From: a virus
Virus record (IMG/VR): IMGVR_UViG_3300027833_000012
Location: 112,257-176,256 of that record
Reading direction: 5' to 3' (one strand)
DNA length: 64,000 nucleotides
The translations under genes were made by a program, and so were the position numbers. This document shows positions 6,753 to 40,000 of the stretch, one piece after another (position 1 is the first letter of the stretch; each line of letters starts with the position of its first letter). The notes under the pieces are model-generated. The model did not search any database. It was not told the DNA's origin and saw nothing but the letters and a program-made list of their open reading frames with translations.

Positions 6753-8888
6753 TTAAATAAAATAATTAGGGTTAATTATTGTACCATTTGTTGGGTCTGA
6801 ATAAGGGGCCCTATAAATTAATTCATAAGTACCAGTGTTTTCATCATAAATACCATTAACATCTGGTAATAAAGCATATAATTCAAAATCACTTAACTCT
6901 AATGGGCTAGTTAACACTTCAACTTTATAATAACCAAGTAAACATTCACTCACAGACCCACCATAAAGTATTTCACTATTTATTATAAAACCGTTAGGTA
7001 AGTTACTACTATTCAAGTTTGGTAAATCTGGGGTAATAGAACCTAAATTAAAGGGTTCTGTAATATATGTAAATGAGTTAACACCAATACCAAGATTTAC
7101 CAAACCTACTAAAGGGAAATTATTTTGAGTATTTTGCGGACCTAATAGTTTATTGGATTGAATGTAAGTGTAGTGGGACCCAAAAGTATATGTATTATCA
7201 AAATCACCAATATCTTGCCAATTATTACCAACAGAAACTCCGCTATTAACATTTATATCACACTCACAAGGACCAACATACTCGTTAACCATAGTTTTAC
7301 ATGTTATTTCAAAAAAATAATCACCATTTGTTGTAGTACCACTAATATGTTCTGAACCAGCATTGAAGAATAAAAAATTATAAGATTGGTTATCCCCACA
7401 TGGTTGTGTTTCATCTGTGGCAAAAGTAAATTGAACATACCCATAATATGGGGCTGTATCACTTGTTGGTGGGTTTTGACTATCCCAAGCATGGTTAATA
7501 TTACTAACCATTCTACCATAATAATTTTGGAAATCCGTTTCATCTGTGAATGTAAACGTATATTTATTTCCAACCTTTTTAAAATTATATTCATTAATTG
7601 TTTCACAAATTAGTGACCCAGATTGTATAACATCAGTTAAACAATCAAATTGTGAATCTGTAAAATTCCAAAAATTTCTTGAACGTTGACCTATTATCCC
7701 ATATTTAAAAGATTCTGATAGAATGTATTCGCATAATTCCCAGTCCATTAAAAAACGATAACCCCCACAATTATTTGTTGGGAAAAATTGGAATGTTTGT
7801 TGGTTTAATTTTTTAAAACCATTTTGAAAATCAATACATGTGTTAGTATTATAATCATCTAAACATGTGAAAAATAAATCCCAATTAGTTTCAATATTAT
7901 TTTGGTTTGGTATGACTTCAATTATTATTTTATCGTTTGGACTCCTATTAAAATTTTCTAGATTAATAATTTTATAGTAAAATGTTTGTGAATTAAATAA
8001 ATATGGTAAAGTACTAAAATCCGAAGATGAATTTTGTTTACCAATATCAATAAAGTCTAAACCTATTGGGTCAACATAATTATCACCTACAAATGTTAAT
8101 TTTATTGTATCTGGTATTAACTCACCTTTAAAAGCCCAAGCAAAATAATCAATGTTTTCATCTAAATCAAAAGTACCATCAAGTGCTGTTGGGGATGAAC
8201 CGTTAGTTTGAGCTTGGAATTGTATTCTATGGTCATATTCACCTTTATTTGCATCAGGTTTATCTGTGTTAACCCCATTATCACAATTAAAAGCATCTAC
8301 TAAAACTGTATAATTATCTAAACAATCCTCCACATTAACTGGAATTGGTTCAAAGGTATCACCACTTTGTGAGTAATTAACACCATCAATTCTAACCTTA
8401 TCAATAACTGGGTTATAGGTACCAGCCTGTGCGAAAATAGAATTAACACCTATTAATGGGTGTGTGAATGAATATGGTGTAAACTCATCACCGAAACCTG
8501 AAATATAAGAAACCTCATCGTTTTCATTATACCAATATATTCTATAATCAGTAAGACCTTGATTATTACTTAACAAATCACCAACATCTATTCTACCAAT
8601 TAAGGAAGTGTTAGCTTCTGAAAAATCAAAATTAGCTACACCACAAAAATCAACCTCACTTATAGGTAAATCAATATAACAGTCATTAATTGTATCTATC
8701 AACCTTAATATTGTAACACCTTCTGGTATTGAAACAAAGTATGGGGTATTTTCATCAATCAAATCCGATAATACAATACCAGTCAATAAAGGGTTTACAA
8801 AATTATCTAAATCACCATACAATGTGAATGGCGTTGTTAACGGTCTATTACCCGTATCTACTAAACTTATTATTATTACTTTATTCAT
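6753..8888 (-). CDS. Large virion/adhesin-like protein
   Basis: This 711-aa protein starts MNKVIIISLVDTGNRPLTTP, a beta-strand opening like bacterial adhesin domains, and stays beta-rich throughout. About a dozen Cys are spread along it, including a CECD motif near residue 540 and C-GGY near 370. Its start overlaps the stop of the 873-aa gene by one base, so the two giants are translationally coupled. No enzymatic motif, signal peptide or membrane segment is visible. I infer a tail-tip or fibre component. The N-terminal hydrophobic run (KVIIISLV) is too short to be a secretion signal. Confidence 0.45.
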   Translation of the reverse strand: MNKVIIISLVDTGNRPLTTPFTLYGDLDNFVNPLLTGIVLSDLIDENTPYFVSIPEGVTILRLIDTINDCYIDLPISEVDFCGVANFDFSEANTSLIGRIDVGDLLSNNQGLTDYRIYWYNENDEVSYISGFGDEFTPYSFTHPLIGVNSIFAQAGTYNPVIDKVRIDGVNYSQSGDTFEPIPVNVEDCLDNYTVLVDAFNCDNGVNTDKPDANKGEYDHRIQFQAQTNGSSPTALDGTFDLDENIDYFAWAFKGELIPDTIKLTFVGDNYVDPIGLDFIDIGKQNSSSDFSTLPYLFNSQTFYYKIINLENFNRSPNDKIIIEVIPNQNNIETNWDLFFTCLDDYNTNTCIDFQNGFKKLNQQTFQFFPTNNCGGYRFLMDWELCEYILSESFKYGIIGQRSRNFWNFTDSQFDCLTDVIQSGSLICETINEYNFKKVGNKYTFTFTDETDFQNYYGRMVSNINHAWDSQNPPTSDTAPYYGYVQFTFATDETQPCGDNQSYNFLFFNAGSEHISGTTTNGDYFFEITCKTMVNEYVGPCECDINVNSGVSVGNNWQDIGDFDNTYTFGSHYTYIQSNKLLGPQNTQNNFPLVGLVNLGIGVNSFTYITEPFNLGSITPDLPNLNSSNLPNGFIINSEILYGGSVSECLLGYYKVEVLTSPLELSDFELYALLPDVNGIYDENTGTYELIYRAPYSDPTNGTIINPNYFI

Positions 8889-11509
8889 TAATCTGGTTTT
8901 ATATATGTTATTACTGAACCAGTTAAATCAGTACATTCATCTGGTATACAGTCTAATTCATAAATATCTAATTTAAAATCTATCTTAAGACCTTTTTTTA
9001 ATAGGTCATCACAATCTATGGTTTCTGTAAACGTTACAATATTACCATCAATACTATAGTCTAAACCTAATTCGTTAGCTATCACTTGTAATTCATTCTG
9101 ATAATCCACATTTGTGGGATATAAATCAGGTACTGTTGGGTTGTTAGGTATTGTTTCACCACTATAAAAAATGTTTTCGTAAACTATTTCACAACCAACC
9201 TCAACACTAATACCCCATTCGGTCCTTAAACACTCATTTTCTATAGGTTTAAAGTCTTTAGGTACATTTTCATCTAAAATACTATAAAAGTCAATGTCGG
9301 TGTTAATATCAAGTTCAATTAAGTCTCCAATACAACAACAATCACCAGTTAAACCACTTGGGTTAATTTCACAACCTAATATATCTGGATTGTCATTTAT
9401 ATAACACCAAACATCGGTTTCAATACCACTAGATGGTTTTAATTCTAAATCAATCTCCTTAGTGTTAATGACTAATTTATGATGATTAACATCATATTCG
9501 GTTACTCTATCCTCTAAGTAAAAACCTCTATTATCCTTTTTATCGTAAGAAACCCAAGATTTTTTATTATCTATTATTTTTTCTATTTCAAATTTAGGTG
9601 GTTCAGATATGTAAGTCTCTATATTATCAACCTTTTCACAACTTTTATCAATACTTATTTTATCAATTAATATTGATAAATCAGAACATGAATTATTAAC
9701 CGTTAAGCTAATATTTATTAACCTACCTTTTATTAAAGAAATTATTTCTGGGTCACTTATTGTTAAGTCAAATCTTAACCAACAAGAGCTATACCAATTA
9801 GCTAATAATACTTCTAAATTAGCTTCCTCTTCTTTTGTTTTTGGTGGATTGTTAATTAAATATTGTGTGTAAATATCATTATTTAAAATCTTTATAATTG
9901 AATCACAACTATTACCACTAATCATTAACCCTGTGTTTGGTGAATTACTATTCACATGGTTATATAAATTACCAGTACCAATATTAAATAGATTTTCAGT
10001 ATAAACACTTAGGGTCTGGTTTAATTGTGTGTCAGTCACATCTAAATTCATTGACACATCAAAAGATTCTAACACATCTAAGTAATTTTTACAACTACCA
10101 TTAACTACTACACCTACAGTTATTTTTTCTAACTCAGCTTGTAAGGTATATAAAACTTTTTGAGCACTTCTTAAAAGTTGTGTATATTCAGTTATAGTAT
10201 TAAATGAAATAAACCTATCATAGACATCAAATCCACAATCTTCCTCATACCAACTTACATTACTAGGTTCAGAATTAACCAAACTATTAACATCATCACA
10301 ACCATACACATTAATATTATTACCCCTGGAATTTAACCAAATCTGATATGTTTGTGGTGAAAGTGTTGTTGACCAGGCATTAAGACCATCATCGGTTAAG
10401 CAGTATTTTTTATCACCACACTCTATAACATATGGTGGTATATTTAAATTAAACTCTCTTATTAAACTAGTTAACCTATTTATCTCAACTTCTTTTTCTG
10501 AAATATCTAATAAAATTTGAGTTATTAATACTTGTGTTTTATCATCCACATTACCAGTAATAGCATCTTCTAAATCAGAACAATCGTATTTAAATAAATA
10601 ATCAAACGAAATATTTAAACTACAAGTTTCATTATCATCATATGTAAATTTAGTCCCACTACCATCTTCCGAATTAATTATTATTTTATATGGTTCAAAA
10701 TCACAGTTAATGTCACCACCTGTGTCACCACCTGTGTCATCATCGGTATCACCACCTGTGTCATCATCGGTATCATCAACACCATCTGATAATTTTCTTA
10801 CTTTACAAAATTTACCGTTAACCCCAACTATATCCCAATAAAATTCATAATTATTATAAGTGCTAGTATTGTAATTTGGGTTATCTGAAAAAATTATACT
10901 ATTAGTGATAAAATTAAATTCATTGTAAGATTCACAACAAGTTTGACTAATATCATCATTTACTACAGATTCTTCAAGATTATCATTTAGATTATAGAAT
11001 AATAGTTCTGGGATGTCTGGACACTTAATATCATCATTAGTATCAACTACATAATCTCTAACCCTACATTGTCTTCCTGTCCAATAAAATTCATATATTG
11101 GTTCAGAATTATCAAAATCGAACTCACCTTCATGTATTATACCAGAAAAATCAACTCTTGGTGTATAATTAAACACACTATGTATATTACAACAATATTC
11201 TGTATCAACCCCAACAGCAAGCCCACCAACAATACCTTGGTCTATAGAACTTAAAATTTGTGGTTTAAATTCACATTTTTCAACTTTTTTAGAATTATTA
11301 TTAGAAGTTCCCCACTTACATTTTTGACTATTTATATCAAATTCATAACCAAGAAATTCACAACACATTTTATTTTCATGTGTTGTAATTGGCCCCCCAT
11401 TTGTGTCATATATTGATACTGTACCGTTTGAATTTTCAATAATCTGATAACCAGATTTTAAAAAACTTTCTCTACTAGTACAACCATTATTTAAATCTGA
11501 TTTATTCAT
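8888..11509 (-). CDS. Cysteine-rich giant virion protein with acidic Asp-Thr-Gly repeat
   Basis: This 873-aa protein contains about 35 cysteines, unusually many for a phage structural protein. Its N-terminal 240 residues hold three copies of a CC ... (W/Y) ... C.(V/W).. unit (CCEFLGYEF...CKW; CCNIHSVF...YEFYWTGRQCRVR; CCESYNEF...YEFYWD...FCKVR). A stretch of Asp, Thr and Gly repeats then acts as an apparent linker, encoded by the tandem repeat at 10711-10778. Further on lie helical segments and more Cys-rich parts (GDCCCIGD, ELDCIPDEC). No enzyme motif is seen. Its place downstream of the gpI-like baseplate gene suggests a tail fibre or baseplate appendage. Cys pairs could form disulphides after lysis or bind metal; both are inference. 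Confidence 0.5.
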   Translation of the reverse strand: MNKSDLNNGCTSRESFLKSGYQIIENSNGTVSIYDTNGGPITTHENKMCCEFLGYEFDINSQKCKWGTSNNNSKKVEKCEFKPQILSSIDQGIVGGLAVGVDTEYCCNIHSVFNYTPRVDFSGIIHEGEFDFDNSEPIYEFYWTGRQCRVRDYVVDTNDDIKCPDIPELLFYNLNDNLEESVVNDDISQTCCESYNEFNFITNSIIFSDNPNYNTSTYNNYEFYWDIVGVNGKFCKVRKLSDGVDDTDDDTGGDTDDDTGGDTGGDINCDFEPYKIIINSEDGSGTKFTYDDNETCSLNISFDYLFKYDCSDLEDAITGNVDDKTQVLITQILLDISEKEVEINRLTSLIREFNLNIPPYVIECGDKKYCLTDDGLNAWSTTLSPQTYQIWLNSRGNNINVYGCDDVNSLVNSEPSNVSWYEEDCGFDVYDRFISFNTITEYTQLLRSAQKVLYTLQAELEKITVGVVVNGSCKNYLDVLESFDVSMNLDVTDTQLNQTLSVYTENLFNIGTGNLYNHVNSNSPNTGLMISGNSCDSIIKILNNDIYTQYLINNPPKTKEEEANLEVLLANWYSSCWLRFDLTISDPEIISLIKGRLINISLTVNNSCSDLSILIDKISIDKSCEKVDNIETYISEPPKFEIEKIIDNKKSWVSYDKKDNRGFYLEDRVTEYDVNHHKLVINTKEIDLELKPSSGIETDVWCYINDNPDILGCEINPSGLTGDCCCIGDLIELDINTDIDFYSILDENVPKDFKPIENECLRTEWGISVEVGCEIVYENIFYSGETIPNNPTVPDLYPTNVDYQNELQVIANELGLDYSIDGNIVTFTETIDCDDLLKKGLKIDFKLDIYELDCIPDECTDLTGSVITYIKPD
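10711..10778 (-). repeat. Coding tandem repeat in the Cys-rich protein (24-bp units)
   Basis: Two exact 24-bp units occupy 10725-10748 and 10749-10772, with a shorter partial unit before them and part of one after. They encode alternating Asp-Asp-Thr-Gly-Gly-Asp-Thr residues. In-frame units let copy number change without breaking the gene, so the linker may vary in length between isolates. Confidence 0.8.
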
Positions 11510-11583: not shown

Positions 11584-14274
11584 CTATTCGTAAAGACTTT
11601 TTGTATAATCCTTACACCCCACCTCACCTATTGATTTTTTATATATATTTTGGTAAATACTATCAAATGAGTTAGGTATTTGTGCTAACCCTTTTAGATT
11701 AAGTTTACACCCATAACCTTCAACACCAGTGAATGGGTCAGTAATTATTTCTGGTGTTGTATAAAACACTGGACAAAAACAAGAATCAGCTTCACTTACT
11801 ACCCTAGGGTTACCTAACGGGTCAGTAAATTTTAAAAAGATACTATTTAACTCATTTGAATACATATCTGATATTGTATTACCGAATAAAACCCATTGAC
11901 AAGTTAAAAAACAACCACAACCACTATTACCTAAATCCTCATCTAAACCCTTTGAATTACAACAAACATAACCGCTGTTAATTGGGTTAACATCAAAACT
12001 AGGTGTATTATCAATTAATTGGTATTCCGAATGAAGAAAGGGTGTACCATTTGCGTTAGAAATACAACATTCCCTTTCAACATATACAGATGTCTTAGTT
12101 TTATCCGATAATGAACCGTCCATATTATAAAGTTTAGTTTCAAATAAAAATAAATTATCATAATCATCAAAGTCAATTGTATCGAAAGAATCCTCACAAT
12201 TTTTTTCAGAACTACAAGACCTATTATCCTTTATTTTTATAACCAGGGCTGAATCATTAGATGGTGCGTCACAAACACAATTAACTATTTCACATGTTGG
12301 GCAAGGGTCTAGTTCTATTCTGTTATCAAGTAATATCACATCACTTAAATCCACACCCTTTTCATTAACAACATCAACATATATGTTACCAGAATAACCA
12401 TTAATAACACCTTCATTATAATTACTAAATAACCCAACCTCACTATTTGTAACTGTTGTTGCTGTTACAGTAAATGGGTTAAAATTAGGTATTATATTTG
12501 ATAATTGATTTATATATTCTGTACCACCATCATAAGGTCCAACATGTGGGTTATTACCATCTAATATTAATAGACTTGATGACTCACCACCTGTCTCCCT
12601 ATACCATTGTCCACCCTTCTGAAAATACATATCTGATGTGTTTTCGAAAAATTTAGGATAACCTTCTTCATCTACATTATATAAATTAATATTAGTATCT
12701 AAATTATTATTTTCTAAAACTAAATTAAATAAGTCCATATCAATAGGACCCTTAACTTTATAAATATATTCATTGAAATTTATTAAACCATCTGGTGCAC
12801 CAATAAATTTAAAGAAAAATTCTATGACTTTTCTAGTACCCTTAGACTTCCATATCCAGGCTGAATTAAGAACCAACCTTCTCCACATTTCAATATCAGC
12901 CTCATTAGGTGTTAAACCTCTTTTATAACCACTATAAGTTGAAGATGATGTGTTTAAATAAGAATTTAATAAATCGTTATTAGCCATTGATGACACCATA
13001 TTCCAACCAAGTGTTCTACCTAGGTATTTAACTAATTGGTCTGGGGTATTATTCTTTTTATCATAAGTTACTATATTAGAAAAAGAAATCCCATCTATGT
13101 ATTTTTTAACTTCATCAAATTCTCTACCATAAATCTTAAGAGTTTTATTCATTTTTTGACCAGAAGCTTCATCACCAGAAACATCTATGGTAGGAATTGT
13201 ATCAAAATCTGATATTGATTGTGAAGTAAAAAATCTAGCTACCAAATTACTTTGGATTTCATCTTTACTTTCACTAATTTTTAATAATTCTGTAACATAT
13301 TCTACATATTGTTCAGTATTAAAATCAATATTATAACCATCACTAACTGGCCAAGTAAGTGTTTTAGTTCTATTAATTATTAAACCATCATCAGTTTCAG
13401 TCTTATAATTATAAGTCGATGTGAATATAGGGTTTATTAATCTATTTAATAAATTAGATTCAAATTTACTTAACGAGTTAAAGAAACTTTCATATAGAAT
13501 TTCGTTTGGTTTTATATGGTAAGTTTCATTTGTTGTTGGCTCTGTAATATCAAAAGGGTTTCCTTCTACCTCAAAATAAATAAAATCATCAATTAAATTA
13601 TTTGAACCAGTGAAACCTATTACATTAAAATCACCTAATTCTGTTGATATAACATAACTAAGAGAATTAATACTTAAATTCCTTAAATTATTACTCTCAT
13701 TAAAAGTGTTTATAATTGTACCGTTTTTTTGAAAATTAATACCAAATTTATTATCTATAAAATTTGTATCTACTTTAAATGTGGATTTATTTAAAACATC
13801 ATCATAAGTGTAATCTAACACTGTTGGACCCACCATAGTTCTTATATTAGTACTCCTAGTTGGTTTTATATAAAGTGATGCTGGCCAATTCGTAATTATA
13901 TTTTCAAGATTAACTCTTATAAATTCAGTAGCTGAACCAAAATAAGCGAATTTAGATAAATCAGTTTTATCGATATTAATATCTACATTAATATTATTAC
14001 TTAATAATGTCTTAGAAGTATTGTTAGTTAATTTTAAACCCTGTAAAGTGTAAAAATCACTATATTTTTTAGTATCATAAACTTTCGATGTTCTACCATC
14101 AAAATTTGTGGTAGTTACAAAGTTATTTAACGTGAATGTCGAATTTGCTCCACCATCACCTGTAGTTTGTTGATTACCAACTAAATCATCACTAAAGTTT
14201 CTATACTCAATACCATCATTGTAAAATTTTCTTTGAGCGTAACCTATTACCTTTATTCTTTCGTTTTCAGCCAT
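11584..14274 (-). CDS. Baseplate wedge protein with tail protein I-like region
   Basis: This 896-aa protein contains, at about residues 415-500, the pattern LGRTLGWN...LNSYL... RRLVLNSAWIWKSKGT RKVIEFFFKFIGAP. It resembles the core of P2 gpI-type baseplate proteins, in which a helical block ends in 'KGT..A....l...G'. The P2 order W-J-I is echoed here: gp25/W at 25546, J at 25145, then this gene further along the same strand. The N-terminal 400 residues are beta-rich. The C-terminal 250 residues hold Cys clusters (CPTCEIVNCVC, ECCISN, VCCNSKG, GCGCFLTC) like those of the next gene. It would connect the wedge to the fibres. The gpI link is by motif and gene order, not alignment. Confidence 0.55.
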   Translation of the reverse strand: MAENERIKVIGYAQRKFYNDGIEYRNFSDDLVGNQQTTGDGGANSTFTLNNFVTTTNFDGRTSKVYDTKKYSDFYTLQGLKLTNNTSKTLLSNNINVDINIDKTDLSKFAYFGSATEFIRVNLENIITNWPASLYIKPTRSTNIRTMVGPTVLDYTYDDVLNKSTFKVDTNFIDNKFGINFQKNGTIINTFNESNNLRNLSINSLSYVISTELGDFNVIGFTGSNNLIDDFIYFEVEGNPFDITEPTTNETYHIKPNEILYESFFNSLSKFESNLLNRLINPIFTSTYNYKTETDDGLIINRTKTLTWPVSDGYNIDFNTEQYVEYVTELLKISESKDEIQSNLVARFFTSQSISDFDTIPTIDVSGDEASGQKMNKTLKIYGREFDEVKKYIDGISFSNIVTYDKKNNTPDQLVKYLGRTLGWNMVSSMANNDLLNSYLNTSSSTYSGYKRGLTPNEADIEMWRRLVLNSAWIWKSKGTRKVIEFFFKFIGAPDGLINFNEYIYKVKGPIDMDLFNLVLENNNLDTNINLYNVDEEGYPKFFENTSDMYFQKGGQWYRETGGESSSLLILDGNNPHVGPYDGGTEYINQLSNIIPNFNPFTVTATTVTNSEVGLFSNYNEGVINGYSGNIYVDVVNEKGVDLSDVILLDNRIELDPCPTCEIVNCVCDAPSNDSALVIKIKDNRSCSSEKNCEDSFDTIDFDDYDNLFLFETKLYNMDGSLSDKTKTSVYVERECCISNANGTPFLHSEYQLIDNTPSFDVNPINSGYVCCNSKGLDEDLGNSGCGCFLTCQWVLFGNTISDMYSNELNSIFLKFTDPLGNPRVVSEADSCFCPVFYTTPEIITDPFTGVEGYGCKLNLKGLAQIPNSFDSIYQNIYKKSIGEVGCKDYTKSLYE

Positions 14275-16166: not shown

Positions 16167-17020
16167 TATGTTGCGTTTATTTCATATAAGTTTATTGTAT
16201 ACTCATTGGTATTTATCTGAACATTACCATCAGAATACTGATTATCAATTCTATAATAATAACCATCATCATCTCTACTTAATATATACTTTGTATGTAG
16301 GTTATTTTTTAAATTTGTACCAGAAGTAGTTCTAGCTAATTCATCAACACTTAAATTTGGATTGTTGGTGGACATAAATTTAGTTGTCTTACCAGTCTTT
16401 GCATTAGCAAAAGATGCCCTCATAAACATTTCTTTAGGTACTGTTGGGATTACCTCATCTTTAAAGTAATATAAACTAAAACCCTCACCATTCATTTCTC
16501 TATTTATCAAATTATTACCTAACACGAATCTAACATCATAAGTATTAGGTTCTGGCACCGTACCATTTTGTTTATATTCATTAAGTGTAAATTTAGGGAA
16601 AATTGTTATGAAAAATAACAACCTTTGTGTAGAGTTGATATCAGTATCATAAAAATCTAACCTTAAAAATGATTTAACAAATTTATTCTTTTTAAATTTA
16701 AAATCATCATAATCAAAAGTTAATTCACTCCAATAAGTTGTTGGGTTATAACCACCAGAATCATTCAAAAACTTTAAATTATAATTTAATGAACTTATTA
16801 TTGACCCCGTATCAATATTCTTAGGTAAAAACTTTACCTTTTCGTAATCTAATATTTGGTTTATCGATTTTTCTAATTCAACATCAACAAATTTAGTATT
16901 AATAATATCAGACTTAGCGACAATATCTGGTGTATGATTTATTGGGATATTTAAATCCATACCATTAATATTATTTTTATTTGGTTTTAAAATTTTATAT
17001 TTATTAACACGCATCTCCAT
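16166..17020 (-). CDS. Structural protein of the baseplate cluster, unknown (284 aa)
   Basis: This 284-aa protein begins MEMRVNKYKILKPNKNNING. It is beta-rich with a basic N-terminus. Residues 90-130 (YWSELTFDYDDFKFKKNKFV KSFLRLDFYD and onward) and 145-215 look like a folded sandwich. It overlaps the end of the 577-aa gene by 17 bases, and the next gene by one base. It has the same length as its downstream neighbour, but the sequences do not align, so I do not call them paralogues. A role in the baseplate periphery is inferred from position. Confidence 0.45.
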   Translation of the reverse strand: MEMRVNKYKILKPNKNNINGMDLNIPINHTPDIVAKSDIINTKFVDVELEKSINQILDYEKVKFLPKNIDTGSIISSLNYNLKFLNDSGGYNPTTYWSELTFDYDDFKFKKNKFVKSFLRLDFYDTDINSTQRLLFFITIFPKFTLNEYKQNGTVPEPNTYDVRFVLGNNLINREMNGEGFSLYYFKDEVIPTVPKEMFMRASFANAKTGKTTKFMSTNNPNLSVDELARTTSGTNLKNNLHTKYILSRDDDGYYYRIDNQYSDGNVQINTNEYTINLYEINAT

Positions 17021-18737
17021 CTGATTTTACTATAAACTTATCTGTAACCCCATCACCTATAGGGTCCTTTGGTGAAAAATTATCCTCACTTGCAATACCA
17101 CTGTAATAAAGGTCATATACTCCAAACGGGTCTTGTCTTTTTGTACCAAAACATAAATATTTATGTATATAGTGATTTCCGTTGGTAAATGGGTAATCTA
17201 AGAAATCCCCCTCACCATCATAAACACCTATATCTAATAAATCTCTCCATAAAAATCTACCATCACCAATATTTTCAGCATACTCAGGAATACCAGAAGT
17301 ATTAGAGTCACCTTGTTCTATATAAAGTGAATATTCCCTTATCTTAACCAAATGATGTGGTTTGTATAAATAACCTTCCCTTCTTGGTCCCTCAGCTAAA
17401 CCAGTATATTTAGTTTCTCTATCCTTTGTGTTTACTCTATGTAATACATCTGATAGTATTTTTTCCCTTAACTCTAATTTATTATATTCAACAACATCAC
17501 CATAAAATTCATCAAAATTGTTATTTATTCCGTCCTCTAATGGTGTTTGAGATGTGAAATAATCTGGGTCATTTACTGGTCCATCATGTATTCTTCTTAC
17601 ATTAGAAATATCATCACTTAAATTTCCAGGTGAAAATTCTAAATCAAAACCAGATTTAATATTAGTAAACATTTCATCATTACCAGTCTTAATTAATGTT
17701 AAGTATAATTCACTAAGTGGTCTACCTAAATTATCCACTAAACCGCTAATATCTATATCTTCAGTAAATGTTAATTGATAATTAGTATCTTTAAATATAT
17801 TTTTACTAAATGCTAATGGATAAATTTCGTAATTATCTTGATTTAATATTAATTTCTTAAATTTTCTAACATAATAATCAGACTCTTGATTGTTAACCAA
17901 CCTCTTAACTCTACCGTTTGAAAAATTAATACCAGTAGGTACCGTACTTGGGTCTATGTTTATTACGAAATAAATATTTTTATAATCCCCATTATCTAAC
18001 CCTAACTTAGTAACCGTAAAATCACCATTATAATTTTGGTTAGGCATATTACTTAATCTAACTTTATCACCGTTATTAAGTCCATGATAAGTTGATGTTC
18101 CAAGAGCTACCATAGGTACTGAACCCACATTTACTATTTCAGCCTCTGTGATTAATAAACCACCATTAACAATTACATGTGAATCATCTGAATCATATGG
18201 GTACGTAATTGTAACATCCCAATTTTTCTTAACATTAGAATTTAAATCAAATCTAGCTCTAGTTGGTTCTAAATCATAATATTCACATAAAACTGATTTA
18301 GTTAAGTCTGGGTCGTAAAACCCAAACCAACCATCAATCTCTTTTAAATGGTAATTTAATGACTCTTTAAAATTAAATTCTATCTCACCTGTAAAATCAC
18401 CATCATATGGGTTTTCTAAAAATATTGGGTCGTTAAGTGTTTCTAAAGCATTACCATTTTTTGGTATGATTGAATCACCGAAAGTACCTAAATTTTTATT
18501 ACCCCTCATATTATATAATACGTTACTAAATAATGGGCTTAATGTAAAAGTTAATCTATAACTTTTAGAATCTTGACGCTCTTTATTAAATTGCTCACCA
18601 ACATTTAAAACTTTATTAATATCACTTAATGGTATATCCCTTCTATCATCACTAATATCAACCCTAACATAATTATTAACATTAACATCACCCTTAGAAC
18701 GCTCACTCTTTAAAACATATTTATATCTTTTACTCAT
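17004..18737 (-). CDS. Structural protein of the baseplate cluster, unknown (577 aa)
   Basis: This 577-aa protein begins MSKRYKYVLKSERSKGDVNV. It is mixed alpha/beta, with a beta-barrel-like stretch around residues 200-280 (YHGLNNGDKVRLSN, YNGDFTVTKLG) resembling small adaptor domains in tail proteins. The C-terminal 100 residues are Tyr/Gly-rich (RFLWRDLLDIGVYDGEG, FGVYDLYYSG). It starts two bases after the SprB-repeat giant ends and overlaps the following gene by 17 bases. No enzymatic motif was found. A baseplate or fibre-network component is the best inference. Confidence 0.45.
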   Translation of the reverse strand: MSKRYKYVLKSERSKGDVNVNNYVRVDISDDRRDIPLSDINKVLNVGEQFNKERQDSKSYRLTFTLSPLFSNVLYNMRGNKNLGTFGDSIIPKNGNALETLNDPIFLENPYDGDFTGEIEFNFKESLNYHLKEIDGWFGFYDPDLTKSVLCEYYDLEPTRARFDLNSNVKKNWDVTITYPYDSDDSHVIVNGGLLITEAEIVNVGSVPMVALGTSTYHGLNNGDKVRLSNMPNQNYNGDFTVTKLGLDNGDYKNIYFVINIDPSTVPTGINFSNGRVKRLVNNQESDYYVRKFKKLILNQDNYEIYPLAFSKNIFKDTNYQLTFTEDIDISGLVDNLGRPLSELYLTLIKTGNDEMFTNIKSGFDLEFSPGNLSDDISNVRRIHDGPVNDPDYFTSQTPLEDGINNNFDEFYGDVVEYNKLELREKILSDVLHRVNTKDRETKYTGLAEGPRREGYLYKPHHLVKIREYSLYIEQGDSNTSGIPEYAENIGDGRFLWRDLLDIGVYDGEGDFLDYPFTNGNHYIHKYLCFGTKRQDPFGVYDLYYSGIASEDNFSPKDPIGDGVTDKFIVKSDGDAC

Positions 18738-18739
18738 AA

Positions 18740-21700
18740 TTAAAATGGATTAGTATAGTAATCACAAAAACCACCAGTACCGTTATTATCTCTTATCCCA
18801 CACACCCTTAAACCACCTATATTAGCCGTAATTGCATTAGTTTGACCACCAATAATAGTTAAATCTGATACAACAGTAGGTATTGTTGGATTAGTTGTGC
18901 TATACCATTGGTAAGTGAAACTACCAATTGGTGAATCATTACCACTTGATATTGGTGTATTACCAAACCCACCAACTGGTATTGCTTCATATACTGGGAC
19001 ATTATCCCCACCAACCTCAATGGTAGAATTTTCGATAGTACCACCTAATTTTTTAATAGGTCTCCTAACCCCTAACTCTTCTGTTTTAATACAACCAACA
19101 CTGTCTTCAACAACGGCCAAATATAAAGTCCCACTTTCCGAATCACCATATGGTAAATCCGTAAATGTAACTGAAGTTCCAGTAATTGTTTCACTAATAT
19201 CAGAAAAACCACCTTGCAATGTAATCATATAAGGTGGTACACCACCAGTAAGACCGTTTATTGTGATTTGACCATTTTCACTTCCCTCACCTAATTCTGT
19301 AATATTATCATCATTATCAATTACATCAGCAGTCATTAAACAAGTTATATTTTTATCAACATTAGTATTAAACCCTAATGTTGGTGGTTGGGTTAAATTA
19401 ACTGTATCATTTACAACTTGACCAACAGAATCAGTAACGGTGACTGAATATGAACCAACATCTAAATTAGAAATAACATTACCAGGTGACGAAGCACCAA
19501 CCCAATCATAAGTGTAAGGTGGCACACCACCAATAACTACAGCTATCACCATACCATCCTTAGCTGAATTACAAGTAATCACTCTTTCTTCTAATGTTAA
19601 ACTCAAACTTTGTGGTTCGTTAATTTCAACAAATTCAGAACATTCAGTTTGTGGTACACTATTATCACTAACAGTTATAAAATATTCACCAGCACTTAAA
19701 TTTGTGAAGACATGTGAATTTGTTGTAATTGAGATACTATCAACAACACTTAATATTGTCCCAGTAGAAACCTCGTAATTATTTAAAATAATACTATATG
19801 GGTTAGTACCACTAGTAACATTAACTATTATTTGACCATCCGACAAACCATTTTGACTTACTGGTGTATTTTGAATATCACAAATAACACTAGGTGGTCC
19901 AGGGACGATAAATGTACCCTCAGTAACATTACCTACTGAATCTGTAACCGTAACAATATAAGTGCCAGAATACAAGTTTGAAATATCTTCTATATTATTA
20001 GTTAAAGGATATTGGACACCATCAACAATCGGTCCTATCCATTCAAAACTATAAGGTCCAACACCACCAATAACTTCAATATCAATTGCACCAGTAGGTT
20101 GTACCCCAGCATCATCTTCAGTTATATTATTAGCAACAATAAAGAAATCAACCTCTTTTTCTGGGACGCAAGAAGGGAAGAAATTTGTAATTAATTTAGT
20201 TAAAGCAGTGTTACCCTCATTTAACCCAAAGTAAAAATAAAATGAATTTTCATATTGTTTTATTTTATTAATAGTAACATCACGATATTCTTTATAATAT
20301 CTACCAGAATAATCAAAATCATTTTCATCTATATAAACTAAAGGTATTGTTGTACCGACAACAATACTTGGATTGTTAGCATAAATTAAAGCACCTCTAA
20401 TAAACGGGTTTTCAATATCATTATTAAGTATTTTATTGTCTGGCAAACCAAGTCCTTCATCCAACCTACGTTCATCAAGTCCCATACCTATCTCACAAAT
20501 ACGTTTAATACTGTTACAATTAGTCCTTTTTAATCCAGTACAGTTTATACTAGCAATTAAAGCATCAGGTCCACCACCATCATCTTCATTATCAAAACCA
20601 CTAAGCACCAAAGTATTAGTTTCATCAACATCTTGAATTAGTGGGGGACGCTTATATGAGGTATCTAATAAAAATGGGTATAATTTAGGTATACCTTGCC
20701 AATCACAATCAAATACTGAACCTAATGAGGTTATACCAGTTGCAAATAACTTATAACTCTTAGTTCTAGCATATGCTGGGTAAAATAATTCACCCTCAAA
20801 TTTCTTTAAATAACCTTCCCTAAGTGTTGTTGTTTCATTACTATTAATATCCGAACCAGTACAAGTATCAATTAATTTCTTATTCTTCTTAGACTCATCA
20901 ACATTACAATATTTTTCCTTACCATTCTTTTTAAATTTATACTTAAATAAAAACGCATATAATGTACCATTAAGCCAATCACTGTAAAAATCAAAACTAA
21001 AAATATTAATAGCGTCAGCTATGGCAAAAAGTATACATTTTATGAAACCAGCATCATTACCAAAAGGTAATTGTGATTCTCTTGTACCATCATCATACCA
21101 AAACGTATCATAATCTATATCAACTTCACCACACCTAACATCCACTTCATCACTAGCTTGACTTAACTGTTCTTGTGTCGCTCTAAATGTTGTTTTAGAA
21201 AAACCGTTATCTTTACCACAAGGTGCATATTTCTTATCTTCTGGGTCAATTGGGCATGGTAGGGTTATAAATGGTATGTAAGGTATAATATCCCTACAAC
21301 TACAACCACCATTAAAACACCCTATACAAAAGTCTTCTTTATTTACTCTCCAAGTAACACCTGGTATTTTAGAAATTAAACTAGCAGCTTTAGATAAAAA
21401 TCTACCAATTGTATAAATTATTTCACAAATTACTAATAAAATAGTGTTAAGTATTTTCATTATAAAATTAATGATTGGGAAAATTAGGCTATTCAATAAA
21501 CAAATTATCTGTACCACAATTGTAAGTATAATACAAATAATGAAAAATAAAGGGTGAAACCCACTATGCAATCTGTTAAACGGAAATGGGTTATTATTTC
21601 CCTCATCAACATCCTTTATCCCTATAAAATTACGTTTATTTATATTATCCTTGTTTTGAACTCTAGATATATGATTTTTTATTGTATAAATTTTATTCCA

Positions 21701-22915
21701 ATAAAAATCAGCAAAATGTTTATCTCTAGTGTTAGGTCCAAATGTATAATCAGAATCTTCCCAATTATCTGGGTTATGTGGGACTAAGTATTTTGCTCTA
21801 CTTCTAAGTCTACCTTCACCACCAGTTGAATTCATACCAATTTTAAACCTAACTCTACTTCTAGTTGGTATACCTCTGGTAGCATCATCTGATGGTATTA
21901 AAGTACCATCTTCAGCTGTAACCTTATAATCTAAATTCATTGGAACTTGATAAGCCCAAGTACCCTTATCATCAATTAATTGACCACCTTCAACATCAAA
22001 ACGTTCAATACCACCATCATTGGTGTATCTAATCATTTCAACCGTACCTTCACCAGCCACTAATTCTGCACTATTACCCATTTTATTTCTGGGCCTACAA
22101 TTCTTGTTAACTGAATTTTTATCACTATCAGTTACAATAGAACCCATGAATATTGCGGATGGGATTATTGTTGTCTTTAAATCAACATCTACCCTAGAAA
22201 TACCAACCTCACATTCATCAATATCACCCCAAAAAGGTACAACTGTAACACTCACAGGTGATACAGTTTTTAATTGTGTTAAATTAGGGTTATCTCTCCT
22301 ATTTTTGAATTTACTAGCTGAATAGAATTTTTTACTATCAGCACCTTGACTTATTAAATCATAAGGTCTTTGTGATAATAAACCTATATCTGATATATCA
22401 GCATCTACATGTACGAAATGAGTACCTACTGGTACTCCAAAAATCATAAAATCACCAGAATTATTAGTTGTAGTACTAAATTTATAATATTTAGTGTAGA
22501 TATCACTTATCTCAGGGTTATCTTGAATCTCTCTCTTTGATGGAAATGTACCTACTGAGGTGTAACATTCATCTTTACCTCTAACGCTCTTAGGCATCAA
22601 ATTATAAGGTATACCGTCACCATCTTTATCCGTAACAACTTCAAAAGGGTAAAGACCAAAAATATCTGGGTCTAAAGTATCTTCTTCATCTATTGGGATA
22701 AATATTGATACTCTTGCGTTTGGAACACCGAAACCGTTGTTTACGATAACTCTACCAACTACAGTACCGTAATCAGAACAAAAACGTCTATATGCTTCCT
22801 CTTGAGATATCTTTAACGAAAGTATCTCAATAAAATCAAATTTCTGATTTATTTTAACATTTATATTTTTATTACCACCACCTGGTGTTGTTTTTATCCT
22901 TATATTCTCAGACAT
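18740..22915 (-). CDS. Giant baseplate-cluster protein with SprB-like repeats and a membrane-type segment
   Basis: This 1391-aa protein has a mosaic layout. Residues 50-172 look like a carboxypeptidase-regulatory/transthyretin-like domain (GTVVGRVIVNNGFGVPNARV, then SGDFMIFGVPVGTH). Residues 454-515 are a long hydrophobic stretch able to form two or more membrane helices. Residues 530-570 are Cys-rich (CIGCFNGGCSC). From about 925 to 1285 four repeats match the SprB-repeat pattern of Bacteroidota gliding adhesins (GGVPPYTYDWVG, LDVGSYSVTVTDSVG; also SGTYIVTVTDSVG and SAGEYFITVSD), with a degenerate fifth to the end. It lies two wedge genes after gp6/J. I infer a tail protein facing the host envelope. 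The domain calls rest on motif recognition; the role is speculative. Confidence 0.65.
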   Translation of the reverse strand: MSENIRIKTTPGGGNKNINVKINQKFDFIEILSLKISQEEAYRRFCSDYGTVVGRVIVNNGFGVPNARVSIFIPIDEEDTLDPDIFGLYPFEVVTDKDGDGIPYNLMPKSVRGKDECYTSVGTFPSKREIQDNPEISDIYTKYYKFSTTTNNSGDFMIFGVPVGTHFVHVDADISDIGLLSQRPYDLISQGADSKKFYSASKFKNRRDNPNLTQLKTVSPVSVTVVPFWGDIDECEVGISRVDVDLKTTIIPSAIFMGSIVTDSDKNSVNKNCRPRNKMGNSAELVAGEGTVEMIRYTNDGGIERFDVEGGQLIDDKGTWAYQVPMNLDYKVTAEDGTLIPSDDATRGIPTRSRVRFKIGMNSTGGEGRLRSRAKYLVPHNPDNWEDSDYTFGPNTRDKHFADFYWNKIYTIKNHISRVQNKDNINKRNFIGIKDVDEGNNNPFPFNRLHSGFHPLFFIICIILTIVVQIICLLNSLIFPIINFIMKILNTILLVICEIIYTIGRFLSKAASLISKIPGVTWRVNKEDFCIGCFNGGCSCRDIIPYIPFITLPCPIDPEDKKYAPCGKDNGFSKTTFRATQEQLSQASDEVDVRCGEVDIDYDTFWYDDGTRESQLPFGNDAGFIKCILFAIADAINIFSFDFYSDWLNGTLYAFLFKYKFKKNGKEKYCNVDESKKNKKLIDTCTGSDINSNETTTLREGYLKKFEGELFYPAYARTKSYKLFATGITSLGSVFDCDWQGIPKLYPFLLDTSYKRPPLIQDVDETNTLVLSGFDNEDDGGGPDALIASINCTGLKRTNCNSIKRICEIGMGLDERRLDEGLGLPDNKILNNDIENPFIRGALIYANNPSIVVGTTIPLVYIDENDFDYSGRYYKEYRDVTINKIKQYENSFYFYFGLNEGNTALTKLITNFFPSCVPEKEVDFFIVANNITEDDAGVQPTGAIDIEVIGGVGPYSFEWIGPIVDGVQYPLTNNIEDISNLYSGTYIVTVTDSVGNVTEGTFIVPGPPSVICDIQNTPVSQNGLSDGQIIVNVTSGTNPYSIILNNYEVSTGTILSVVDSISITTNSHVFTNLSAGEYFITVSDNSVPQTECSEFVEINEPQSLSLTLEERVITCNSAKDGMVIAVVIGGVPPYTYDWVGASSPGNVISNLDVGSYSVTVTDSVGQVVNDTVNLTQPPTLGFNTNVDKNITCLMTADVIDNDDNITELGEGSENGQITINGLTGGVPPYMITLQGGFSDISETITGTSVTFTDLPYGDSESGTLYLAVVEDSVGCIKTEELGVRRPIKKLGGTIENSTIEVGGDNVPVYEAIPVGGFGNTPISSGNDSPIGSFTYQWYSTTNPTIPTVVSDLTIIGGQTNAITANIGGLRVCGIRDNNGTGGFCDYYTNPF

Positions 22916-22919
22916 TTAT

Positions 22920-23267
22920 TTATTTTTTTAAATCTTCGGTTATATCTTCGATACCGATTTCTTCGTATTCATCATCGTTTTCATCATCCTCTTCATCACT
23001 TTCTTCTTCTACATCTTTACCAGTTAACATTTTACCAATACCAACTAAACCACTAGTTATATCAACATTACCTTCTAAAAATAGTACATTAAACAACATG
23101 TACAATGAAAATGGAATAACAATAATGGCCACTATTGGGCCAGTGAATAAAAATACTACTAATTTTACGAAAAATATTAATATTTTTGAACCTATACCAG
23201 AATTATCTATTTCTTTTTGAATTGGATTAATCGAAATCCTCTTATCTTTACATTTTTTACAACCCAT
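22920..23267 (-). CDS. Small membrane protein with N-terminal Cys pair and acidic tail
   Basis: This 115-aa protein has three parts. The first is a basic N-terminus with a CKKC motif (MGCKKCKDKR). A strongly hydrophobic segment follows at about residues 27-65, long enough for one or two transmembrane helices. Last comes a highly acidic C-terminal tail of about 30 residues (EEESDEEDDENDDEYEE). It sits between the gp6/J gene and the SprB-repeat giant, which has its own hydrophobic segment, and is four bases from the latter. Small membrane proteins are unusual inside a baseplate operon. It could be a chaperone or partner for the giant's hydrophobic part, or a holin-like protein. Neither is proven. 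Confidence 0.6.
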   Translation of the reverse strand: MGCKKCKDKRISINPIQKEIDNSGIGSKILIFFVKLVVFLFTGPIVAIIVIPFSLYMLFNVLFLEGNVDITSGLVGIGKMLTGKDVEEESDEEDDENDDEYEEIGIEDITEDLKK

Positions 23268-23327: not shown

Positions 23328-25145
23328 CTATTTAACTCTTACCTTTATGTCGAATTCTGGGTATTTAATCTCAAACATACCTATTGGGTCTCCGAATAAT
23401 GTATACTCACCTAATAAGTCTATTTGTCTAGTTTGATTATCTATATATGGTTGAGGAATTTCGTTTGGTGAATACTTACCCTCACCAACTTTGTTATATA
23501 CCCTTAAATCGACTATATTTAAAACTCCAGTAACATTATTAATCTGTTCCGATAACTGAGTTAGGTAAATATTATCCCCCATACCCCATTTATTTATTTC
23601 AAAATACTCACTTATAATATTTATAACTTCAGAAATAACCTCGGATTGAGAAAATTGTTTATCAATAAATAAATCAACCTCAAAACCAATGTTATATAAC
23701 TTACCGTTATCAACTTCAACATAATCATTTAACATTTTATAATCTGATAAATATGTTGCTATATTTTGCTTTAAAGTGTTTGTAGATGTTGTTGTTAAAC
23801 CACCATCCTCAGATAAATTAATAATGTAAACTTTAACCTTATTTTGTTCTTCTAACACATTACATCTAAATGGTACGCCAAATTCACCAGGCATAAGTCC
23901 AATTCTAGCTTTATAATCCTGTATTGTAACTGCTCTATTTTGTGATGAAAAATTATACCTAACTAAATTCCTTACCTCTTCTATTGAAGGTTCATCTTTA
24001 CCACCTAAAGCTGGAAGAGGGTTATTAACTGTTATTGAATTTCTAACTAATTGATTAACTTTATTATCTGACCCATTTATAACCATCTCAATTTTAGTTA
24101 CTGTATTTAGAGAGTTAGGACCTATATTTGTATCACTACCCCCACCTACTCTATACTGTACGAACATTGTTTGGTTTGCTGTAGGTGTAATACCTAGTGA
24201 TAAATTATTTATAAAATCACCAACCCTATTCACTAAAGTTTTATTTACATCAAATTCACATAAAGAGCTAATATCTTCAGAACCACCCCCGAATATTAAT
24301 TTACAAAAACCATTATCTGTATATTCTTTAATAAATCTTTGGTCAACTCTTTTAAATTTACCAGGAGTTACCGCTGAATTATCACTAACCCTACTATTAT
24401 CTGGTATGAATACTATATCATCAACTAACGCATCAACTTCGAACCATCTGTATTTATCATTATAAAATTGATTTGTGGTTGGATTAGCTGTATAATCAGT
24501 ACCTTCTAAGGTTATTATGGAATTAATTGATAACACATTATTATCTGGTAATATTAATTCAAAAAATGGTTTAACATTTTCTTCAGTTATTACCCTCTTT
24601 AAAATTTTACTAACACCGTTAATTACAATCTCCCTCTTAGTTAATGTGTAATTAACTATAGTATTGTTTGAATCAAAATTAGGTATTACTAATCTGTTAG
24701 GTACACCACCTATTGTAAATGGACTAGAAAAGTCAATATCATTAGAACTTTCAAATATTTTACCAGCACCACTTATTTGTGCACCACGTTTTATTTTTGG
24801 AGCGTATGAAATATCAAATGTATCACCTAGTGGTGGTACTGTTACTGAAAAATCAACAATAGTCATTGATGGTCTCTTACCTGGGATATTTAAACCAAAT
24901 GTTCTAGCCATAGATAAGACTGAATTTCTTTCTTGAGCGAAGTCTATTTGCGTTTCTTGGAACATTCTATCAGTGTGAAATGATAACATATCACCCACAG
25001 CCGCATTAAGTTCTAATAACATCATACCAACCGAGGCATCATTAAAATCATTAAAGATATCTGGATAATATTGTTTAACGAAATTTATTAATTCTTGTCT
25101 AACATCAGCAAAATTTCTTGCGTTGTAATTTATTTTTTTAGCCAT
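23328..25145 (-). CDS. Baseplate wedge protein, gp6 / baseplate J family
   Basis: This 605-aa protein shows the classic start of the gp6/J family: FADVRQELINFVKQYYPDIF, then DFNDASVGMMLLELNAAVGD and MLSFHTDRMFQE within the first 70 residues. Its later part keeps the J-like block ALGGKDEPSIEEVRNLV... RAVTIQDYKARIGLMPGEFG (about residues 390-430). T4 gp6 forms the ring that holds the wedges together; its length of 660 aa is close. It follows gp25/W by 11 bases, the standard W-J order of contractile tails. It acts in the assembled baseplate, transmitting the trigger for sheath contraction. Confidence 0.85.
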   Translation of the reverse strand: MAKKINYNARNFADVRQELINFVKQYYPDIFNDFNDASVGMMLLELNAAVGDMLSFHTDRMFQETQIDFAQERNSVLSMARTFGLNIPGKRPSMTIVDFSVTVPPLGDTFDISYAPKIKRGAQISGAGKIFESSNDIDFSSPFTIGGVPNRLVIPNFDSNNTIVNYTLTKREIVINGVSKILKRVITEENVKPFFELILPDNNVLSINSIITLEGTDYTANPTTNQFYNDKYRWFEVDALVDDIVFIPDNSRVSDNSAVTPGKFKRVDQRFIKEYTDNGFCKLIFGGGSEDISSLCEFDVNKTLVNRVGDFINNLSLGITPTANQTMFVQYRVGGGSDTNIGPNSLNTVTKIEMVINGSDNKVNQLVRNSITVNNPLPALGGKDEPSIEEVRNLVRYNFSSQNRAVTIQDYKARIGLMPGEFGVPFRCNVLEEQNKVKVYIINLSEDGGLTTTSTNTLKQNIATYLSDYKMLNDYVEVDNGKLYNIGFEVDLFIDKQFSQSEVISEVINIISEYFEINKWGMGDNIYLTQLSEQINNVTGVLNIVDLRVYNKVGEGKYSPNEIPQPYIDNQTRQIDLLGEYTLFGDPIGMFEIKYPEFDIKVRVK

Positions 25146-25156
25146 TTGTTTATATT

Positions 25157-25546
25157 TTATAATTCAATTACAACAAAATCAGTATCTTCAAATACATCAT
25201 CAGTTACAGTATAATCAATTCTTACCGTAACACCATGTTCTGAAACTTCGTTTTCCGTAACTAACACATCATTTATTTGTAAATTAGGTATATACTTTTT
25301 TACAGTAATATTAATTTCTTTTTTTATTTCACTTTGGGTTGTTATATCGTTTGGTTCGAATATAAACTTAAGTAAGTTTGTACCAAAATCAGGCATATAT
25401 AATCTTTCACCTTTTCTTGTTAATAGTAAATGCATTAAGTCCGATTTAACTGCATTTTTATCATCATTATTAAGTTTAAAAAAATAACCTTGATTACTTT
25501 CCTGAAACGGAAAGCCAATATTTATAAATTTACCATTACCAGCCAT
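25157..25546 (-). CDS. Baseplate wedge protein gp25 / GpW family (lysozyme-fold)
   Basis: This 129-aa protein carries the family hallmark LLLTRKGERLYMPDFGTNLL followed by KFIFEP (about residues 41-66), seen in T4 gp25, P2 gpW and T6SS TssE. Length matches T4 gp25 (132 aa). The protein links the central hub and sheath initiation to the wedge. It is the first gene after the bidirectional terminator at 25608-25638, so the baseplate operon probably begins in that gap. The nearby AACATTTATTAT on the minus strand is a weak promoter candidate. Confidence 0.9.
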   Translation of the reverse strand: MAGNGKFINIGFPFQESNQGYFFKLNNDDKNAVKSDLMHLLLTRKGERLYMPDFGTNLLKFIFEPNDITTQSEIKKEINITVKKYIPNLQINDVLVTENEVSEHGVTVRIDYTVTDDVFEDTDFVVIEL

Positions 25547-37010: not shown

Positions 37011-40000
37011 TTATAATTCTATTATTATACCATTTATACCATTATCATTGTCATCACCATTGTCATCACTATTGGATGGTATTATCTTAAAGTCTTTTCG
37101 TGTCCCTTCATTAGATTTAGTTCCACCAACTTTTTCAGCTGAACCACCACCATCTAATGGACCTAATAAATCCATAAATAGTGTTGGTGCATCAACTAGA
37201 GGTGTTTTTCCAGCTTTTACCCTAACACCTTTCATCTTTGTGGTCATATTATGTGCCTTTATACTATGAGTAACCTTAGTTATCATGTATGCACCTCTAA
37301 ATAAAGGTATATCATTTAAATGGAAATACATCATTGGTTGAACCATAGCATTTCCCATCATTTCTATTTCTGTTGAATAAGACCTTTTTTGATACACATT
37401 AAATAGATTCTGACCAACATAAGATGGGCTTCTCTTATTAGCATCTTTAGATATATCTTCAATTATTTGTAATGATTCAGCAGTTTCAGAAAATTCCCTT
37501 TGGTCTAGTTTAATATCCTTAAAAAAACTTTGATTATCTCTACCGTAACTAACGGCAATCATAGGTATATTTAAATCACCATCACCAATCTTTTGATTTA
37601 AAAAATCTACAGGAGCACCATCTGGATTACCGTTAGCGTATCTTATATAAACACCATCATCTGGATGTTGATAACTGTTACCCATATTTAAATTTGTTGA
37701 GGTTTGACCAATATATGTACATACAAATGATGGACCCACTTCTAATTTACCATCATTATTAGCTAAATCATTGTATGTGTACGGTTTAAACATATCAGCA
37801 ACATCATCTACATTATTAAAATTAACAAAGGATGGTAAAGCTATGAAATTAAAATTATTATCTGATAATACTCTGTTAGATAAATCAAAGAAACTTTGAT
37901 TATAATTATTAACAATTAAATCACTTACAGCTAATGGATTAATATAAAACTCATCACCTATACTTGTAAAAGCTCTATCTAAAAACCTAAATGAATCTAT
38001 TAATCTAGGTTCACTATTTCTTTCTTTTTTGGCTATTTTCGTATCATAACTACTAACACCACATTGACCAAAAATTGATTTTGAATCCCCTAACCATTTA
38101 TTATATATTGATGATAGAGTTCTATATAAATTTAATTTTATAGCATCATTATCAACACTCTTAAATAACTTATTTTCTAAATCACTAGTTTCATTATCCT
38201 CACCACTACGCCATTTCTTTGCTAAGGATTTAAATTCATTACAAAAATTATCTAAAAATAAATCGAACTCAACTTTAGGTACAATAATATCCTCGTAACC
38301 AACACCACTTGTTGTGGTTACCCTAGAGTTAAATGCTTTAGGGTTGTTGTTTAAAATAACATTATTAGCCTTTAATAAATTATTAAGAATTTTATTACCC
38401 TTAGCAGTTGGTTTTAATTTTAAATTAATCTGATAAATGTTACTACCAACATCATTATTTTTATTCCATGGGTATTCACTTAACGGACTAATATCTGAAT
38501 ATGAGTCTAAAACATGTGAGTTTAATTTACCCTCATCTATTAATGTTTGTATCCCAGATTTACTAATTTTATAACTTTTTTGAATACCATTTGGAAATGT
38601 AAATTCTTCTTTTAAACTATTTATTTCACCCCATAAGTTATCGAAACCAACTAATGAAGTTACATTAAATATCTCTAAATTATCTTTTAATAATTTAAAA
38701 TCACCCTTATTAGCAAAATCAGTAAATGAATTAATAAAAGCATCTTTTATTTGTTTTGGTAACCTTAATAAAATTTCATCAACTTTAGGGTATTCATTAT
38801 CATCATTAAAATCTAATAATAACCCGAAACTACTATTTTGGTTAGCCCTTGAACGAATGTACTCATCATGTCTAGGAACTCTAGACTCACTTTTCTGCCA
38901 TGCACATAAAGGGTCTGAATTATCATCCTTAAATGTTATTATATCATCACCATTTAAACCTTGTTGATATCTATAAAGTAACGAACCTATAAATGCACAC
39001 CATAATTTAGGGGCTTTTATAAATGATGCATTTGCACCAAATAAACCTTTAAGTAAAAATGTTTCATCCTTATCTCTAAATGATTTACTATCCCCATCAC
39101 TATTAGTATTAATACCGTCAAATAAACTAACCCCTTCATCAATAAAGTAATAAAAATCAGTTTCAATTTGTTCACCAATAATCCCTTCCCATCCGAATGT
39201 GTTTAAGAATAGGAAAGCTTTAGCTTCAATACTTTTTTGACCGTAATAAAACCTACTACCAAAAAGACTAAAGTAATTACAGAAACTACCAAGTATTTGA
39301 TTACCATCATTAATCCCAAAATCAATAAAAGGAGTATATATATCATCCACATTATTATCATTTTTAGTTTCACCGTATAAATCACCCAATATTTCCCTTT
39401 GTTTACCAAATTCACTAGGTAAATCAGTAGAACTTAATCTTCTATTTAGATTAGATGTTTTATATTTTGGGGTACCACAACCTTTACAAAAGTATGAATC
39501 AGTTTCATCATAATTTTTATCCTCACCTTTTTTAAATCTAGCTAAATAATTTCCACCAAAATTATCTGAGTTAAAACCTTTTGATTCTGTAATTTCATTA
39601 AAATAACCTATCGTTACGGAAGCTACGCCTTCGTTAGCCCCATCTTTTTTGTATTTAGGTGTACTATCATCAAAATTTAAATCGAACAACTCCTGGGCGT
39701 TGTAACGGCCTGAGTATGGATTTAACGTTGATAATCTAATTTTATCATATGCAGCACCTAAAGTTGTACTTGAATTAACAAGTGTTGTCTTAGGGATTAC
39801 CTTGTAATAGTCTGTCATTATATCCCCACTAGTATTTGGTGCTGTTGGGTTATTAGAATTATATTTAGTTTCACTAAGTATTTCAAAATATTTTGACCCA
39901 TCATCATAATCCTCTGTCTTATTACCTAGACCACCAAAATTATTACCAATAAATAATGTACTATTCCCTAACCTTTTTAAATCATCAATTGATTTTAAAC

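Follow-up and report, generated by a model that had tools for sequence, protein, structure and literature searches.

In the window analysed here (that is, the 64,000 nucleotides at positions 112257-176256 of a 187,484-base virus record, G000), the minus strand carries an intact open reading frame with an ATG start at 18740-22915(-), which encodes a protein of 1391 amino acids. Upstream of it, beyond one small gene, lie the genes for a gp6 (Baseplate_J-like) wedge protein (23328-25145(-)) and a gp25-like baseplate wedge protein (25157-25546(-)), both assigned through Pfam and PHROG, and the genes of the wider neighbourhood (gp25, gp6/J, tape measure, baseplate hub, sheath, ribonucleotide reductase and helicase) mark the region as belonging to a contractile phage of the T4-like type. 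The location in a baseplate cluster, already read from this stretch in the original prediction, recurs among relatives, as a gp6 homologue accompanies the family gene in 94 of 96 loci and gp25 in 82. The next gene downstream (17004-18737(-)) encodes a 577-aa protein, a conserved neighbour by synteny for which the family search returned no Pfam or PHROG family; it opens a gene order (577, 284, 284, 303 and 896 residues) that recurs in those loci long enough to show order. The last of these products, an 896-aa protein encoded by a large gene at 11584-14274(-), is related to a 1336-aa protein of Mel-JY01 (E = 2e-8), and it is this gene, rather than that of the 1391-aa protein, that takes the gp7 position of immuto and Mel-JY01. 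The 1391-aa protein was itself considered as a T4 gp7-type wedge protein, and profile comparison with immuto gp109 and the 1336-aa Mel-JY01 protein gave no match to the core. A search for terminase families across the record found none.

The host is likely to belong to the Bacteroidota, given the near absence of Shine-Dalgarno-like motifs (found ahead of only 3 of the 42 window genes, with A-rich leaders as in Bacteroidota) and the fact that one of the nearest relatives is immuto, a Flavobacterium phage. Several further features of these loci were recorded. Open reading frames of 290-380 aa, of homing-endonuclease type by eye only, are inserted between gp6 and the small partner gene in L052, L061, L070 and L075; in L009, L010 and L012 the large-subunit ribonucleotide reductase, upstream of gp25, matches three separate open reading frames with gaps, which suggests intron or intein insertions. 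Within the window, two putative fibre proteins (524-1720(-) and 1722-3887(-)) are alike over 40 residues at the C-terminus (37.5% identity, E = 2e-4); proteins of the fibre region in immuto and Mel-JY01 have similar ends, and the stretch is possibly a shared folding or attachment tag. The gene at 8888-11509(-) encodes an 873-aa protein with 34 cysteines, which is unusual for a phage tail region, and with no PHROG match, and those at 37011-42278(-) and 42601-46593(-), between the endolysin and the tape measure, encode proteins of 1755 and 1330 aa without a functional family.

Residues 1-450 of the 1391-aa protein are strongly conserved among homologues, and the AlphaFold2 model of residues 1-934 reaches a pLDDT of 75 and a pTM of 0.73. 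The chain begins with a highly conserved N-terminal tail (residues 1-45; 22781-22915(-)), modelled at low pLDDT in the monomer and presumed to be a docking segment, and continues into a beta-sandwich (residues 46-175; 22391-22780(-)). Here the original prediction had proposed a carboxypeptidase-regulatory-like domain: the sandwich fold stands, with strands in the model and weak Foldseek matches to pilin, SdrD-B and PA1324-type sandwiches, but the label is weak, because CarboxypepD_reg (PF13620) scores 21.7 bits (E = 2.6e-4) against a Pfam cut-off of 32.3. A 'carboxypeptidase' of similar length in immuto, gp033, was tried as a relative and gave no match. One or more further conserved beta domains of the core occupy residues 215-420 (21656-22273(-); pLDDT mostly 85-95 from residue 241). 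Beyond the hydrophobic segment considered below comes the predicted cysteine cluster, borne out by C530, C533, C538, C540, C554 and C566 (21218-21328(-)); a cysteine-containing linker at this place is common to the homologues (median 7 Cys). The second conserved part of the core (residues 624-916; 20168-21046(-)) runs from a DFYxDWxNGTLY motif to a YFYFG motif near residue 891, followed by a conserved C916, and we place the end of the core near residue 916, as the core-only homologues (811, 835, 944, 1033 and 1055 aa) stop just past the YFYFG motif. Since this domain layout is seen again in homologues that share only about 40-60% identity, it is more than a product of chance.

With the N-terminal 925 aa as query, 18 homologues were found in IMG/VR, and a profile of residues 1-450 brought this to at least 600 candidate stretches and at least 535 confirmed relatives. 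Among 50,697 annotated phage records, the full 1391-aa protein matched in its repeat region only, and three divergent cores had no match. Profile searches with the core gave no Pfam family, no PHROG and no PDB match; a fold search against the PDB returned only loose sandwich-type matches, none of them convincing, and a scan of bacterial and archaeal genomes found four MAG contigs only, of mixed phyla and uninformative on the host. The same core fold does recur over nearly the whole length of an uncharacterized protein of ctPuP5 (Myoviridae sp.; A0A8S5LA66 in BFVD; Foldseek E = 5.8e-67, TM 0.72, 29% identity), itself a metagenomic protein. As far as these searches reach, the 1391-aa protein belongs to a large undescribed family of uncultured phages, and the family is a marker for a large phage group missing from the annotated phage genome collection.

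Residues 449-507 form a membrane-grade stretch (Kyte-Doolittle 19-mer maximum 3.24), and AlphaFold2 models residues 455-514 (21374-21553(-)) as one continuous helix with a pLDDT of about 80-90, in agreement with the 60-residue hydrophobic stretch first proposed. Membrane grade on two hydropathy scales (the sole basis of our membrane-type calls) is reached by only 2 of the 42 window open reading frames, namely the 1391-aa protein and the adjoining 115-aa frame. A hydrophobic segment is kept at about residues 450-510 in 90 of the 91 homologues long enough to show the region; its sequence drifts and its length varies, mostly between 30 and 100 residues, at the same position. The polar residues within it follow a 100-degree period (median z of 3.4 in 82 homologues), and a ladder of asparagines is conserved in the aligned rows (N475 in 31 of 31, N483 in 29 of 32 and N490 in 23 of 32). 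Because the core-only homologues (811-1055 aa) retain the helix although they have no SprB repeats, the membrane segment and the SprB array are, on this comparison, separate modules, and the helix is part of the core. A single 60-residue helix with helical periodicity and a near-invariant asparagine ladder, encoded beside gp6, would also suit the core of an oligomeric bundle, and the helix might then be structural only (that is, a permanently buried coiled coil or helical bundle inside the baseplate that never meets a membrane). We consider this unlikely, although it deserves weight, given that the hydropathy is far over that usual for soluble coiled coils (Kyte-Doolittle values up to 3.2, with 6% charged residues on average).

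The small gene that sits between gp6 and the 1391-aa gene, just upstream of the latter (22920-23267(-)), encodes a 115-aa protein with an N-terminal MGCKKCK, one membrane-type segment by hydropathy and an acidic tail, and has no consistent PHROG or Pfam family. An MGCxxC membrane-type gene is present in 69 of 92 loci, and M1, C3 and C6 are invariant in an alignment of 28 of the proteins; one clade (most of L085-L104) is without it. A link between loss of the partner and a longer hydrophobic region was considered and set aside as weak (mean 58.8 versus 50.3 aa, with several partner-less members short). That the adjoining gene also codes for a membrane-type protein speaks against a helix buried for good in the baseplate. 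The small partner might act as a chaperone or supply a second membrane element. The Eag chaperone and TMD effector pairs of T6SS likewise combine a small gene with a neighbouring large protein that has membrane segments (PMC7773334); unlike in those pairs, the small protein of this phage family is itself membrane-type, and a chaperone role is put forward here as an idea. Such a neighbour would also be in keeping with a scheme in which helix and partner serve assembly, tethering the growing baseplate or tail to the inner membrane of the host, or aid exit, and have no role in infection. A precedent for this is Cis13 of the thylakoid-anchored contractile injection system, a tail-fibre-like component whose triple helix includes a predicted membrane helix, which fixes the machine to the thylakoid of its own cell (PMC8894136) and which we liken to the 1391-aa protein by feature, not by homology. 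An anchor of this kind seems improbable to us, as free virions would have to leave the membrane again and the composition of the tape measures would be left unexplained.

The tape-measure protein of the window (822 aa; 46922-49390(-)) has no membrane-grade segment by hydropathy, and the tape measures of 14 genomes with the family (the window and 13 others) hold 0-52 aa of membrane-type sequence, as against 262 aa in immuto, 162 aa in Mel-JY01 and 70 aa in LR756508, the nearest phages without the family and three non-independent outgroups; the Mel-JY01 (1348 aa) and LR756508 (1602 aa) proteins were assigned as tape measures from their position and size. In immuto and Mel-JY01, the baseplate genes that were examined encode no membrane-grade segment. 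Taken by itself, a tape measure poor in membrane-type sequence is nothing out of the ordinary, given that those of T4 and T5 have little or no predicted membrane region (PMC10996793). Elsewhere, infection by TP901-1 depends on the first hydrophobic region of its tape measure (PMC5099701) and the tape-measure membrane segments of diffocin are proposed to form pores (PMC10996793); in both systems membrane-type helices of the tape measure have been proposed as a channel in the target membrane. Here, by contrast, the segment lies in a baseplate-cluster protein and the tape measure is membrane-poor, a comparison that claims no homology. Were the helix a buried structural bundle, these membrane-poor tape measures would leave the membrane step without an assigned protein. 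The suggestion in the original prediction that an oddly placed membrane segment could insert into the host envelope gains strength from the near-universal conservation of the segment, the membrane-type partner gene and the membrane-poor tape measures, and the 1391-aa protein may be the component with which the phage breaks through the membrane of its host.

The C-terminal residues 921-1391 (18740-20155(-)) form an array that folds as about five Ig-like beta-sandwich domains (AlphaFold2 pLDDT 85.5, with Foldseek in accord). Pfam SprB (PF13573) matches it with 51.9 bits against a cut-off of 28 (E = 5.6e-14) in four stretches, at 20033-20098(-) (G000:132289-132354), 19778-19867(-) (G000:132034-132123), 19499-19579(-) (G000:131755-131835; the best) and 19208-19285(-) (G000:131464-131541), and nowhere else in the 187,484-base record. 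With four Pfam matches and about five modelled sandwiches, the predicted count of four to five repeats holds. These matches, together with the Bacteroidota-type host signs, would be in line with repeats that derive from the host and serve to bind or mimic mobile gliding adhesins, the more so as parts of the gliding machinery have been proposed as phage receptors in Flavobacterium (PMC7345892) and fragments of GhpA of Aureispira are among the best Foldseek/PDB matches to the array (E = 4e-10). However, the TM-scores of these GhpA-type matches are low (about 0.3), which means that single domains superpose and not the whole array, and the region also matches many unrelated Ig proteins. The sole PHROG match of the 1391-aa protein is Hoc-like and lies inside the repeats, and by profile the C-terminal domains match phage Ig modules (the T5-type decoration protein pb10, gp24-type neck whiskers and Hoc-like PHROG 2973), which are capsid or neck proteins with no match to the core. 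In sequence, the array is as close to such decoration and whisker proteins as it is to bacterial adhesins, so that the original pointer to gliding adhesins loses its force; SprB and other Bacteroidota adhesins, including GhpA, are bacterial cell-surface proteins, whereas here the gene is a phage gene in a baseplate cluster and the repeats sit on an unrelated core.

The distribution of the array bears on its origin. An SprB match was present in the C-terminal region of 32 of the 59 homologues scanned, and on a tree of residues 1-460 its presence required four changes of state, the tree being a quick one in which some forks near these changes are open and SprB was called per member by sequence pattern, not Pfam. 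All SprB-bearing rows fall on one side of the tree, with the core-only members L055 and L048 nested among them. The array would thus be an optional extension limited to one broad clade, within which it has apparently been lost. A recent capture from the host, as first envisaged, finds no backing in the tree and is rejected, and given so few state changes across one broad phage clade we regard a gliding-adhesin role for host-derived repeats as very improbable.

Drawing these observations together, we propose, with about an even chance of being right, that the 1391-aa protein is a core baseplate subunit of a T4-like uncultured lineage, with a helix that enters the host envelope during infection and with the Ig array as a binding arm. 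The contractile-phage lineage that has the family probably infects Bacteroidota. The N-terminal part would dock in the baseplate, where several copies would keep their hydrophobic helices shielded, perhaps mutually through the asparagine ladder and by the small partner; upon firing of the tail, the helices would enter a membrane of the host envelope and there hold the tail in place or form the lining of a DNA conduit, taking over the job that membrane segments of the tape measure appear to have in related phages. The SprB-type Ig array at the C-terminus would point outward as an arm that the protein can do without, for weak binding at the surface, possibly to glycans. Against this reading we count the length of the helix, which at 60 residues is more than a single span of a membrane needs and might instead pack into a buried bundle, as well as the restriction of the tape-measure contrast to three outgroup phages and the absence of the small partner from one clade.

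Little is yet understood of how the DNA of contractile phages crosses the inner membrane. What is new here is the MGCxxC partner gene adjoining the 1391-aa gene, together with membrane-poor tape measures in phages that have the family. It is conceivable, though we hold this broader proposal only tentatively and think it rather doubtful, that in a large uncultured lineage membrane breaching has moved from the tape measure to a baseplate subunit with an asparagine-laddered helix, aided by an MGCxxC protein, which would amount to a different genome-delivery device. If true, a lineage-wide baseplate-cluster protein, a membrane-type partner and a membrane-poor tape measure would together make the inner-membrane step testable.
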